Shown in pieces: positions 2,099 through 30,530 of a stretch of DNA of 30,530 nt (position 1 is the first letter of the stretch; every line of letters starts with the position of its first letter). The DNA is from a virus. Below the pieces are notes generated by a model that saw nothing but the letters and a program-made list of their open reading frames with translations, was not told where the DNA came from and did not search any database. A program made the translations under genes and the position numbers. The stretch covers positions 1-30,530 of IMG/VR virus record IMGVR_UViG_3300032246_000271, one strand, 5' to 3'.

Positions 2099-2681
2099 AG
2101 CTATTTATTTTTCTTGTTATTTGTTTTTTGATGTGAATTACTTCTTTCAATTCTTGTGGTAAATTTTGGATGTGGTTTCTTCGGATGTGTTCCACTCGGT
2201 CAATGACCTCTAAGTTTTCAATACAAATGTTCTGCTTGTTGCGGTCTTTGAACACGACAAACATTCCTGGTGGTATTTCTTCGTGATGTTGTTTCCAAAG
2301 TAGCTTGTGAACAAACTCAAATCCTTTGTCGGTTTTCTCTACCAGGTATCCATCCCGAAGTGAACGGAATCCAATCGGCTTAGTGTTGTGTGGTGTTTGT
2401 CCTTTCTTAAATTGTGTTTCAACTCCACCCATCTGCAAACCTTTTTTGCCTTTGTTCCAAGATGCCACTCCTTTTTTGAATTGCGTTGCTTGGTGTCCTT
2501 TGAAGTTTTCAAGATAGTATTGGTGTAAAAACTCAATGTCTTTTTTTATACCGATGTTGTTTGATTTATTGTAAATCTGCTTGATAGTACATCCAAAACG
2601 CACCGCCAAATCATTTGCCATCGTTGTTGGGTATAACCGTTGTAATTCTTCAGTTTCTTCCGTTGTCCAATACTTTCTCAT
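2085..2681 (-). CDS. HNH endonuclease with N-terminal Myb/SANT-like domain, 198 aa
   Basis: The first 50 residues (KYWTTEETEELQRLYPTTMANDLAVRFGCTIKQIYNK) resemble a SANT/Myb-like DNA-binding helix bundle. The later part has an HNH_3 pattern (FVHKLLWKQHHEEIPPGMFV, KDRNKQNICIENLEVI). Such proteins are frequent in Bacteroidota phages; they may be homing nucleases or DNA-processing enzymes. The C-terminus is lysine-rich (IHIKKQITRKINSYGKK). It overlaps the helicase gene by 4 bases. Confidence 0.7.
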   Translation of the reverse strand: MRKYWTTEETEELQRLYPTTMANDLAVRFGCTIKQIYNKSNNIGIKKDIEFLHQYYLENFKGHQATQFKKGVASWNKGKKGLQMGGVETQFKKGQTPHNTKPIGFRSLRDGYLVEKTDKGFEFVHKLLWKQHHEEIPPGMFVVFKDRNKQNICIENLEVIDRVEHIRRNHIQNLPQELKEVIHIKKQITRKINSYGKK

Positions 2682-3916
2682 AGTCGTTCTTGATACATTG
2701 TGCGTTCACCGATGAATGTCGTTTTGATTGTGTAGCATTCACCGTGACGATTCTTTGCGATAATTAGTTCCGCCTCTTCTTGCTGGAGCTTCTCACCTGA
2801 ATAGTATGCCGGGCGGAATGGGAACATCACAACATCCGCATCTTGCTCAATACTTCCACTCTCACGGATATCGCTAAGCATAGGTCTTTTATCCGCTCTC
2901 TCCTCACATTTTCGTGACAACTGAGCCAATACTATCACGGTGATATTTAGTTCTTTAGAAAGCAATTTTAAGTTTCGGGAAATTTCTGCAATCTCTTGCT
3001 CACGGTTTGTTTTTGTTCCTTTGATTAACTGGATGTAATCAATCACCAAAAGTTCAAGTCCGTGTTTTGCTTTATGAATCTTGGCTTTAGATTTGATTTG
3101 TTGGATACTGCAATTCGGATCGTCATCAATGTAAAATTGCACCGTCTGATTGTTGGCTGAATTGATTAATTGCTGAACTTCAAACTCCCGAAGGTTTGCA
3201 TTGCGAATCTTCCAGTTGGCAAGGTCGGTGATTAATGATAAATATCTTTTGACAAGTTGCTCGTTGCTCATCTCCAGCGACAAGAACAATCCCTTTCCAC
3301 CAATCTTGGCGAAGTCATACATCAGCGACAAAGCCAATGCCGTTTTACCTTGCCCCGGTCTTGCAGCCATCACAATCAAATCACCGTTGTTCCATCCACC
3401 CAACACACGGTCAAGTCCTGCCCATCCGGTTGGTCTTCCCGTGAGCTTATCACCTCTTTGCACCGCCTCAATGATTGCATCAACGGTCTTGTTGGTAACT
3501 TGGGTAATCGTGACGGGATCATTGATTGTGGTGAACTTGGTGTTGTCGACCATTGTCTGAACATTTGTGAGAATCTCTTTCAAGTCCGAAGTCAAATCCA
3601 AATTTGTGATGTTCTCAATAAATTGTTTCTTAAGGTACTTGTGTTCAAGTGCTGGAAGGTGACTGCTGATGTTTGGAATCCCATAAACATTCTGCGTGAG
3701 TTTGACAATTGTGACCATCTCAGCACGGCTAAACTTCTTTCCCAAAGTTAAAACATCAATCTCATCGTTGTTGATGTACATCTCTAACATTGATTCAACA
3801 ATGCGTTTGTTCAGGTTATCTTCAAACCATTGCGATTTGATTCTCGGCAAGATTGCACGAGTTTGGTCGTAGAATAGTAATTGACCGATTATGTATTCTT
3901 CAAGTTCTTGCGTCAT
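2678..3916 (-). CDS. dnaB: Replicative DNA helicase, DnaB family, 412 aa
   Basis: The N-terminal domain ([15 protein letters not shown]) is a short DnaB N-domain, followed by a linker and the RecA-like core. Walker A is ARPGQGKT (185-192), the catalytic Glu lies in LSLEMS (E215), Walker B is VIDYIQLI (291-298), AQLSR (331-335) is motif H3 and RESGSIEQDADV (351-362) is motif H4. The length is close to the family norm. It unwinds DNA ahead of the phage or host polymerase; no phage polymerase or primase gene is seen, so host enzymes are presumably used. It overlaps both neighbours. Confidence 0.95.
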   Translation of the reverse strand: MTQELEEYIIGQLLFYDQTRAILPRIKSQWFEDNLNKRIVESMLEMYINNDEIDVLTLGKKFSRAEMVTIVKLTQNVYGIPNISSHLPALEHKYLKKQFIENITNLDLTSDLKEILTNVQTMVDNTKFTTINDPVTITQVTNKTVDAIIEAVQRGDKLTGRPTGWAGLDRVLGGWNNGDLIVMAARPGQGKTALALSLMYDFAKIGGKGLFLSLEMSNEQLVKRYLSLITDLANWKIRNANLREFEVQQLINSANNQTVQFYIDDDPNCSIQQIKSKAKIHKAKHGLELLVIDYIQLIKGTKTNREQEIAEISRNLKLLSKELNITVIVLAQLSRKCEERADKRPMLSDIRESGSIEQDADVVMFPFRPAYYSGEKLQQEEAELIIAKNRHGECYTIKTTFIGERTMYQERL

Positions 3917-4574
3917 AATCGGCTAAGTTAAACAATTTTCGGTTGACAACTTGTGGAAATGTCACATTATTTGCAGAATTTTTCTTCCAAGTCATAACAC
4001 ACGATTTCCAATCCTTGATTTTATTTTTCCCAATCACCCATCCTTTCGCTTCGTAAAAATAGTAGAAACGCTCTGCGAGATTCTCCATTCCTTTTTCTTG
4101 CATATAGATTTCAATTTCTTGAATGGTTGGTTTGACAAACTTACCTTCTTGTTGTTGTTGTTCTTGTTCTTCTTCTTTAATTGGTGTCGTTTGAATTTCG
4201 TCTGCGTTTCGTTTGCGTTTCACTTGCGTTTCGTTTGCGTTTCTCTCATCTTGGTAACTTGCATAATTACAAACACTTAGGTGTGTCGTTATATTATCGC
4301 TATTCACCACAATCATTCCATCACTTTGTAACAAAGTCAAAAAACGCCTAACCTTGCTTTTATCCCAATTCCATCTCTTCGCCCAGGTCTCTAATGACAT
4401 TGTGCTTTCACCCCGTTTGATGTTGTATATCTTGCCTTTGATTATTTGTTTCGCATCAGCAAAGTTTACCGAAAGTAGAATATCATTCCACGCTTCAAAT
4501 TTACTGAACACACGATCTTCAGTATACAACCAATGGTCTTTGATGCTTCGGTGTAATTTAATCCAACCACTCAT
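3900..4574 (-). CDS. Replication initiator / helicase loader-like protein, 224 aa
   Basis: The N-terminal half ([56 protein letters not shown]) is a winged-helix replication initiator domain. A low-complexity acidic and glutamine-rich linker (about residues 131-143) follows, then a C-terminal part ([28 protein letters not shown]) like DnaD-type or helicase-loading ends. It is immediately upstream of the DnaB gene, overlapping it by 17 bases, so it probably opens the origin and loads the helicase. Four 11-bp repeats within its gene (4200-4243) are the probable origin. Which of initiator and loader functions it holds is not determined. Confidence 0.75.
4200..4243. repeat. Probable replication origin: four 11-bp iterons in the initiator gene
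   Basis: Reading the minus strand, four tandem units of 11 bp follow each other without gaps, with consensus GAAACGCAARY (4243-4233, 4232-4222, 4221-4211, 4210-4200). Eleven is not a multiple of three, so the encoded residues 111-125 do not repeat, and the repeat must be kept at the DNA level. The spacing is about one helical turn. Next to it on the lower-coordinate side lies an A-rich, purine-rich tract (about 4150-4185). Lambda and related phages carry iterons and an AT-rich unwinding tract inside the linker part of the initiator gene, as here. Confidence 0.75.
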
Positions 4575-5077
4575 AAGTAAAAGAATCTTTGAAGTGGTGA
4601 TGAATGCATATGTCTCTTTTGATGACGACTATATGGTTCGTTGATATCTTGACACGCTAATTTTAATGAGTTATATTTTTTACCTGTTACATTGTCAATT
4701 ACTGGCTTTGATTGTAACAATCTCCTTGCTTCATTTAATCCCGTTGACCAACCGTGTTTTATATTCTCTTTAGCGGTTGACCATTCAAGATTAATAACGG
4801 TATTATTTAATTTATTTCCGTCAATATGATTCACCTGTGGCTTGTTGTCGGGATTATCTACAAAAGCCAAAGCAACTAATCGGTGAATTGCAACTTGATG
4901 AATTTTGCCATCAATATATAATCCAACATATTCGTATTTTAATCCAATACCTCCCAATTTTGGTTTCAAAATACGCTCCATACCATACTTCAAACTCTTG
5001 ACTTGCCCGTGACTGGAGATGTAGTAGATGCCATTGCTATCAGCAATCGCCTTCCATATTTCTTGTTGTGTTTCCAT
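4571..5077 (-). CDS. NUMOD4-HNH homing endonuclease-like protein, 168 aa
   Basis: Residues about 6-50 match NUMOD4 ([24 protein letters not shown]), residues 65-110 carry an HNH_3 core ([39 protein letters not shown]), and residues 123-150 ([22 protein letters not shown]) look like NUMOD1. This is the layout of phage homing endonucleases, which cut and copy themselves into related genomes. It overlaps the replication initiator start by 4 bases and begins 12 bases after a terminator, suggesting insertion between a control region and the replication genes. It could also be a DNA metabolism nuclease. Confidence 0.8.
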
Positions 5078-5088
5078 TTTTTTTTCAT

Positions 5089-5141
5089 AAAAAAAGCCCT
5101 ATCAAAATGATGCAATTGCGGTGCGATCATTCTAATAAGGC
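5089..5141 (-). terminator. Rho-independent terminator or attenuator before the endonuclease gene
   Basis: On the minus strand GCCTTAT (5141-5135) pairs with ATAGGGC (5102-5096), AATGAT (5131-5126) pairs with ATCATT (5111-5106), and GC (5124-5123) with GC (5113-5112), around a 9-base loop; a 3x3 internal loop and a single-base bulge interrupt it. Seven T follow (5095-5089). It ends 12 bases before the ATG of the endonuclease gene. Confidence 0.8.
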
Positions 5142-5184
5142 AAAAATCTTGTAACGATGGGAATCCGCAATACTCCCGTTTACT
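5089..5184 (-). ncRNA. Candidate small RNA or attenuated leader, about 95 nt
   Basis: Transcription from the promoter at 5189-5220 would begin near 5184 and meet the terminator ending at 5089, giving an RNA of about 95 nt. Near its 5' end a hairpin GGGAGT/ATTCCC with a 7-base loop is visible (plus strand 5153-5171). The 3' end is the terminator hairpin. It may be a free small RNA, or a leader whose terminator controls the endonuclease, initiator and helicase genes. An ATG frame in the hairpin (46 residues, [14 protein letters not shown]...) could be a leader peptide but overlaps the next gene and is doubtful. Confidence 0.5.
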
Positions 5185-5188
5185 CTTA

Positions 5189-5220
5189 CAAATATAGCGA
5201 ATTACTTCAGTTGTTCCAAA
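5189..5220 (-). promoter_or_regulatory. Probable promoter before the replication module
   Basis: On the minus strand TTTG (5220-5217), 20 bases, then TATATTTG (5196-5189) match the Bacteroidota consensus exactly. It overlaps the end of the small HTH gene. The start of transcription would be near 5184, leaving about 107 bases before the next ATG, with a strong terminator between. Confidence 0.7.
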
Positions 5221-30394: not shown

Positions 30395-30510
30395 TGCTCA
30401 CCTCCTCCGTAGGTTAAAATTTCTTTTTTATTAAATGTAATTTGAGTAAGATTCCAACCGTTCTTATCAAAAATATTTAATTCAAACCTATCTGCAAATA
30501 CAATTTTCAT
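30391..30510 (-). CDS. Small hypothetical protein, 39 aa, spanning the circular junction
   Basis: This minus-strand frame runs ATG (30508-30510) to TGA (30391-30393) and encodes 39 residues beginning MKIVFADRF and ending TYGGGEQ. It was recognised by reading the gap between neighbouring genes. Its stop overlaps the ATG of the next gene (ATGA), the same coupling seen throughout the genome. Its last codons also supply a strong Shine-Dalgarno sequence (GGAGGAGG) for that next gene. No family is recognised; the mix of charged and aromatic residues and the tight junction support a real gene. A 5'-partial copy of its start lies at bases 1-28 because of the terminal overlap. Confidence 0.65.
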   Translation of the reverse strand: MKIVFADRFELNIFDKNGWNLTQITFNKKEILTYGGGEQ

Positions 30511-30530
30511 TATTGCACTTATCTTATAAA
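30483..30530. repeat. Terminal direct repeat, right copy
   Basis: Exact copy of window bases 1-48. Joining the two copies gives a circle of about 30,482 bp in which the minus-strand gene order continues without a break from the 90-residue gene near base 69 into the 39-residue gene at the right end. Confidence 0.95.

Follow-up and report, generated by a model that had tools for sequence, protein, structure and literature searches.

The cassette at positions 5089–5220 (minus strand) of the phage DNA analysed here is, with fair probability, the gene of a transcription attenuator of about 96 nt, in which two hairpins, P1 and P2, would be joined by an intramolecular kissing loop. The whole stretch analysed (the window) comprises positions 1–30,530 of the IMG/VR record IMGVR_UViG_3300032246_000271. 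A preliminary description of this DNA had recognized the overall structure, with a promoter, a 5' hairpin and a terminator, but overlooked the complementarity between the two loops, L1 and L2, which is the defining feature of the element. Judged from sequence comparison, the kissing-loop architecture is new and covaries, and the class to which it belongs is apparently undescribed and widespread. The features of the cassette and of the genes downstream are the following:

5217–5220, minus strand: −33 element TTTG of a Bacteroidetes sigma-A type promoter (motif; TTG at 19–20 nt spacing in 42 of 96 relatives)
5189–5196, minus strand: −7 box TATATTTG (motif; identical box in 77 of the 96 distinct relatives)
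5151–5183, minus strand: 5' hairpin P1, 4 + 6 pairs with an internal bulge, beginning at about +2 (fold; covariation in relatives)
5165–5171, minus strand: loop L1, ATTGCGG, 7 nt, putative kissing partner of L2 (complementarity, covariation, loop swaps)
5142–5150, minus strand: A/T linker between P1 and P2, 9 nt (sequence; median linker of the relatives 10.5 nt)
5096–5141, minus strand: terminator hairpin P2, with a 7-nt loop and 16 + 3 pairs separated by a bulged C (fold, covariation, covariance model)
5115–5121, minus strand: loop L2, CCGCAAT, exact complement of L1 (complementarity, covariation, loop swaps)
5089–5095, minus strand: U-tract T7, predicted 3' end of the RNA of about 96 nt (sequence, relatives)
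4571–5077, minus strand: HNH/NUMOD4 endonuclease, first gene of the operon, exchangeable in relatives (domain and profile matches; ATG at 5077)
3900–4574, minus strand: DnaD-like helicase loader/initiator (PHROG 2514, E 2.9e-27)
2678–3916, minus strand: DnaB-like replicative helicase (PF03796)

The promoter, TTTG-N20-TATATTTG at 5220–5189 on the minus strand, was found where the preliminary description had placed it, and it has the arrangement of a sigma-A promoter, with TTTG or TTG about 19–20 nt before TAnnTTTG. In Flavobacterium psychrophilum, the TAnnTTTG box spans −12 to −5 (PMC9723704), and +1 is therefore predicted at 5184, in agreement with the start proposed earlier. The resulting RNA would measure 96 nt (5184–5089), close to the 95 nt or so first suggested, and RNAfold predicts two hairpins with a free energy of −31.1 kcal/mol. 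The pattern TTG-N18–22-TAnnTTTG occurs eight times in the window, and the promoter motif alone is near chance; a generic sigma-70 scan, uninformative for such a host type, returned 43 sites where 40 were expected. By this reckoning, the weight of the promoter call derives from its conservation in relatives, not from the motif alone.

The terminator at 5141–5096 with its T7 is also present and proved stronger than described, with 16 contiguous pairs, the bulged C and 3 further pairs (−21.6 to −22.8 kcal/mol) in place of 15 pairs in three segments. It has the form of an intrinsic terminator: on the transcribed strand, a hairpin containing G+C runs directly into a U-tract. P2 was not listed by a generic terminator scan of the window, probably because of the bulged C. 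A covariance model built on 13 sequences, the window among them, gave one match in the window (90.4 bits, E 5.9e-18). The further hairpin expected near the 5' end of the RNA corresponds to P1, with 10 pairs at 5183–5151. L1 (5171–5165) and L2 (5121–5115) are complementary at 7 of 7 nucleotides and thus could form an intramolecular kissing loop.

A search with the DnaD-like gene retrieved 43 phage loci as first relatives, and a hairpin followed by a T-run was observed upstream of DnaD in 38 of them in a screen on these criteria only. Once aligned, they displayed the same layout with nearly unrelated letters. These loci had been picked without regard to loop complementarity, and yet L1 and L2 were complementary over 6–10 nt wherever the 5' segment had been cut in the right place; in locus L009 the cut fell at a second box, and a 7-nt match was seen there separately. 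Further scans raised the total to 300 loci. A detector combining P1, loop complementarity and the −7 box identified 78 cases on the gene strand versus 3 on the opposite strand in 123 loci, and P1, the kissing complementarity and P2 were present in 108 of 131 loci of the later sets. After the removal of repeats, 96 distinct RNAs from 114 phage loci were assembled, all with promoter, P1, P2, U-tract and a loop complementarity of 6–10 nt, and together carrying 45 different kissing words. Longer kissing variants were recognized by eye in loci missed by the detector, for example L071 with 13 complementary nucleotides. The preliminary description had named loss of the stem in relatives with the same gene order as an argument against its proposal; in such relatives the stem was retained, with strong covariation.

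Covariation across these relatives proves the predicted two-hairpin kissing structure. The sequences were cut at the promoter and the U-tract before alignment, and the structures tested were derived from member sequences. In type A (13 RNAs including that of the window), all 7 pairs of the kissing helix changed on both sides with 97.8% of the cells paired, 15 of the 19 P2 pairs covaried, and in the upper part of P1 pairing reached 95.4%, with two-sided changes at 4 of 5 pairs; none of 500 shuffles matched any observed measure. In type B (21 RNAs), 6 of the 7 kissing pairs covaried and 99.3% of the cells were paired. Shifting the pairing partners by one column lowered pairing from 92–94% to 45–47%. 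When loops were swapped between RNAs, in a set partly selected with complementarity in view, the mean complement, 7.7 nt for loops of the same RNA, fell to 5.0 nt; the observed sum was not reached in any of 50,000 permutations. Type B carries a purine-rich word in L2 and a pyrimidine-rich word in L1, while type A shows the reverse, which indicates that the pairing is conserved and not a fixed sequence. P2 was more stable than its complement in 89 of the 96 RNAs (−18.6 vs −12.0 kcal/mol), and G-U pairs account for 241 of 1,496 pairs in P2 and almost none in the kissing helix. This asymmetry and the distribution of G-U pairs argue that selection acts on the RNA of the transcribed strand.

The endonuclease, initiator and helicase genes named in the preliminary description were identified by profile matches as HNH/NUMOD4, a DnaD-like loader and a DnaB helicase. 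The RNA heads the replication operon, but it is not specific to these three genes, since the first gene varies and second copies head other operons. The RNA keeps its place whether the first gene is HNH/NUMOD4 (the window and L003–L008), a protein of 57–91 aa or the initiator itself. In the type B/C relatives L011, L025, L028 and L031–L034, the first gene encodes 57–73 aa with a common C-terminal motif like LIGALHxIQKxM. Most genomes carry one copy, and a second was found in L025, L075 and L100. The extra copy of L025 precedes a thymidylate-synthase-like gene and that of L075 precedes HNH and ERF-like genes, identities read by eye from the translations. The distance from the U-tract to the first ATG is 0–22 nt in 91 of the 96 RNAs; this count is textual, and in the window the ATG next to the T-run is out of frame and the real start lies 12 nt further on. 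Start codons at this distance imply that downstream expression requires read-through, and in most of the L184–L262 loci the ATG of the initiator itself directly abuts T7, which leaves no room for another promoter. The layout is that of an attenuator, with promoter, structured leader, terminator and coding sequence without an intervening promoter. A role in cis is supported by this short distance from U-tract to ATG, by the persistence of the element when the first gene is exchanged and by the copies at the heads of other operons.

Several further features of these gene neighbourhoods were recorded. In the window, a second HNH endonuclease gene (2085–2681) directly follows the DnaB helicase gene, and the same cluster includes a small protein (1404–1880) that has the C-terminal DNA-binding domain of DnaA (PF08299, E 2e-17) but not the DnaA ATPase. 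About five tandem 11-nt repeats (GTTTCGTTTGC-like) are located at 4184–4238 inside the DnaD-like gene, and the encoded protein region is repeated in relatives too; they are candidate iterons of an origin embedded in the initiator gene, an arrangement known from lambda O. In L023, at about −400 from the DnaD gene, a promoter-like box is separated from the kissing RNA by a second small terminator-like hairpin with T8, and this RNA is without the usual adjacent −7 box. The P1–P2 linker of the L264–L299 subtype seems capable of folding into a third, small hairpin (e.g. TAGGTTAACTAAACCTA) and would be shorter as a result.

In the proposed mechanism, host sigma-A RNA polymerase would start at about 5184, P1 would fold first and, as L2 emerges, L1 could pair with it (7 bp in the window). 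Once the 3' arm of P2 emerges, P2 would zip up and polymerase would be released at the U-tract, yielding a stable RNA of about 96 nt, while a fraction of polymerases would read through and transcribe the HNH–DnaD–DnaB operon. The small RNA and the read-through leader, posed as alternatives in the preliminary description, would both be compatible, since one unit would yield the two products. By working against closure of the lower P2 stem, the kissing helix probably favours read-through, as has been suggested for the guanidine-IV riboswitch, and a trigger (a phage factor, the speed of RNA polymerase or a ligand) may shift the balance between termination and read-through. The sequences show the promoter motif, P1, P2, the U-tract, the covarying kissing helix and the place at the head of the operon; that kissing opposes completion of P2, and hence the direction of its effect, is inferred, as are termination in vivo and the trigger. 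In a crude coaxial model with assumed geometry, the linker was unable to span P1, the kiss and a full P2 in 63 of the 96 RNAs. This linker geometry fits a competition between kiss and P2 within the model, though not universally, as the longer-linker subtypes do not require competition. Weaker P2 hairpins go with longer kisses (Spearman 0.38), a trend confounded by loop size that would be equally consistent with kissing as a stabilising contact. A classical antiterminator hairpin was rejected, since the 5' arm of P2, considered before its 3' arm has been made, pairs less with its own leader than with shuffled ones (0.30 vs 0.42). A kissing-type antiterminator is possible, and the kissing helix is the only contact between leader and terminator that is under selection. 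A short leader peptide inside P2, noticed by eye in some type B RNAs (ATG AAG TAG and similar), was also dismissed, as it is not conserved.

The loop words change rapidly. Loci L167 and L168 have 100% identity over 400 nt downstream and 94% upstream, but only 82% in the RNA, where compensated pairs occur and the words are GTAGAAG and GTAGGAT. Of the 76 pairs of loci that are at least 96% identical downstream, 14 differ in the word; these pairs are not independent, and coding flanks do not make an ideal reference for a noncoding RNA. Two copies within one genome also carry different words. Either diversifying selection or cassette exchange would explain the variability. As a separate observation, L038 and L039 share up to about 90% flanking identity with the window and carry a different N-terminal half of DnaD together with a different RNA; the N-terminus of the initiator and the RNA cassette may be exchanged as a module.

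This variability bears on an alternative in which the terminated RNA acts in trans as a specificity determinant, in superinfection exclusion, copy control or small-RNA regulation, so that its loop words would diversify like plasmid incompatibility loops. The 45 words among 96 RNAs, the near-identical phages with different words and the two differing copies in one genome are what such a role would lead one to expect, and a likeness to IsrK and to the P4 CI RNA, which causes termination in the replication leader (PMC4825925), keeps it in view. However, the complementarity lies within one molecule, so that cis pairing should form first, and noncoding drift or cassette exchange can also yield the variability. 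Some carriers, lillamy and tooticki, are virulent phages (PMC7077304), and no integrase or repressor was detected among the window ORFs tested, which together make lysogenic immunity unlikely. On balance, we regard action in trans as unlikely. The broader proposal, that this is an undescribed and widespread phage RNA class in which intramolecular kissing gates replication and other early operons and a diversifying word also confers specificity against co-infecting relatives, is rather unlikely as a whole and is advanced tentatively.

Two simpler readings were weighed against the cis attenuator. P2 could be a fixed terminator closing an upstream early operon and combined with a promoter, without regulation, kissing serving only to make a compact, nuclease-resistant RNA. 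The upstream genes do share this orientation, P2 makes a strong terminator, and with P1 at about +2 and P2 at the end of the RNA, kissing would protect both ends; but a promoter placed before the terminator and the same layout at the heads of other operons make little sense under this reading, which also leaves the near-strict Watson–Crick kissing helix unexplained, and we judge it improbable. Still further down the scale, and disfavoured, stands a DNA-level element, either a replication origin or an initiator-binding cruciform beside the initiator gene. Although initiator and helicase genes are nearby and 11-nt iterons are found inside the DnaD gene, the strand-asymmetric stability, the many G-U pairs and the conserved promoter and U-tract speak for an RNA, copies occur before non-replication genes, and the iterons themselves are the better origin candidate, so that this reading is very improbable.

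Among known systems, the put RNA of phage HK022 is a two-hairpin leader that affects termination in cis by modifying polymerase; compared by its general description, it resembles the cis attenuator proposed here, but its second hairpin is not a terminator. In ColE1, kissing loops of RNAI and RNAII control plasmid replication, and loop changes create new specificities. In pT181-type antisense attenuators, kissing hairpins likewise control termination or plasmid replication, and loop changes lead to new specificities (PMC3753616). In both plasmid systems two different RNAs pair, whereas the phage leader has both loops in one transcript. The closest architecture is that of the guanidine-IV (mepA) riboswitch, a leader of about 100 nt with P1 and P2 hairpins and loop–loop kissing, in which the kiss stands in competition with full formation of the terminator and favours read-through (PMC11611296). 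That RNA is, however, a bacterial ligand riboswitch, whereas the phage loops vary freely and no invariant ligand pocket is visible; no match to a guanidine-IV model was obtained via Rfam 15 (4,227 models, the inclusion of guanidine-IV among them being unconfirmed). The P4 CI RNA, as described in PMC4825925, also places a phage replication operon under premature termination through leader RNA–RNA pairing, but CI undergoes processing and works in trans in the lysogenic state, while the kissing RNA pairs intramolecularly, has its ends set by promoter and terminator and is found in several virulent carriers. IsrK of Gifsy-1 resembles it in that a terminated small RNA and a read-through mRNA both arise from a single promoter (PMC4825925); it is a single prophage locus, and the passages of that paper on IsrK report no kissing architecture. 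A type III toxin–antitoxin RNA (ToxI-like), which would have tandem pseudoknot repeats ahead of the terminator, was rejected, as the phage RNA is a single non-repeated unit and its first genes encode HNH, small proteins or DnaD, with no ToxN-type toxin.

No family of Rfam 15 exceeded its gathering threshold in the window or 30 relatives, the best sub-threshold match reaching 19.1 bits where 67 were required, and no kissing leader RNA of this kind was described in the open-access papers searched. The element would represent a structured RNA class with very strong covariation, absent from Rfam 15, in a large and little-studied phage group. It points to a way in which flavobacterial phages that use promoters of the host type might set the timing or the level of replication, although no antiterminator protein is obvious in them, and its loop words offer a natural set of apparently distinct kissing attenuators, of interest for RNA engineering in Bacteroidetes.

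The detector, which gave no match in 617 kb of shuffled genomes, found nothing credible in Cellulophaga phages phi12:1 and phi46:1 or Flavobacterium phage 6H, so the RNA is not universal among flavobacterial phages. The same applied to Staphylococcus phi575, Vibrio 1.167.O, Anoxybacillus A403, Salmonella Emek and Planktothrix PaV-LD, and the kissing RNA was not found in two human faecal phages. In host chromosomes, model R2 found nothing in 395 genomes of the phylum of L113, a weak result obtained with strict filters and no positive control. Among named phages, a 7-nt kiss was identified in Olleya phage Harreka_1, a 9-nt kiss in Cellulophaga phage phi13:2, and an 8-nt kiss in Flavobacterium phages 11b, lillamy9-1, tooticki6-1, snork6-2 and hemulen9-1 and in Polaribacter phage P12002L, where it lies directly upstream of the primosomal gene gp44. 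The cultured carriers lillamy9-1, tooticki6-1, phi13:2, Harreka_1 and P12002L would allow the attenuator to be tested. A near-identity search of known phages with the window returned none. At least 30 bases are repeated between the window ends (1–49 and 30482–30530), which suggests a circular or terminally redundant, near-complete phage genome.
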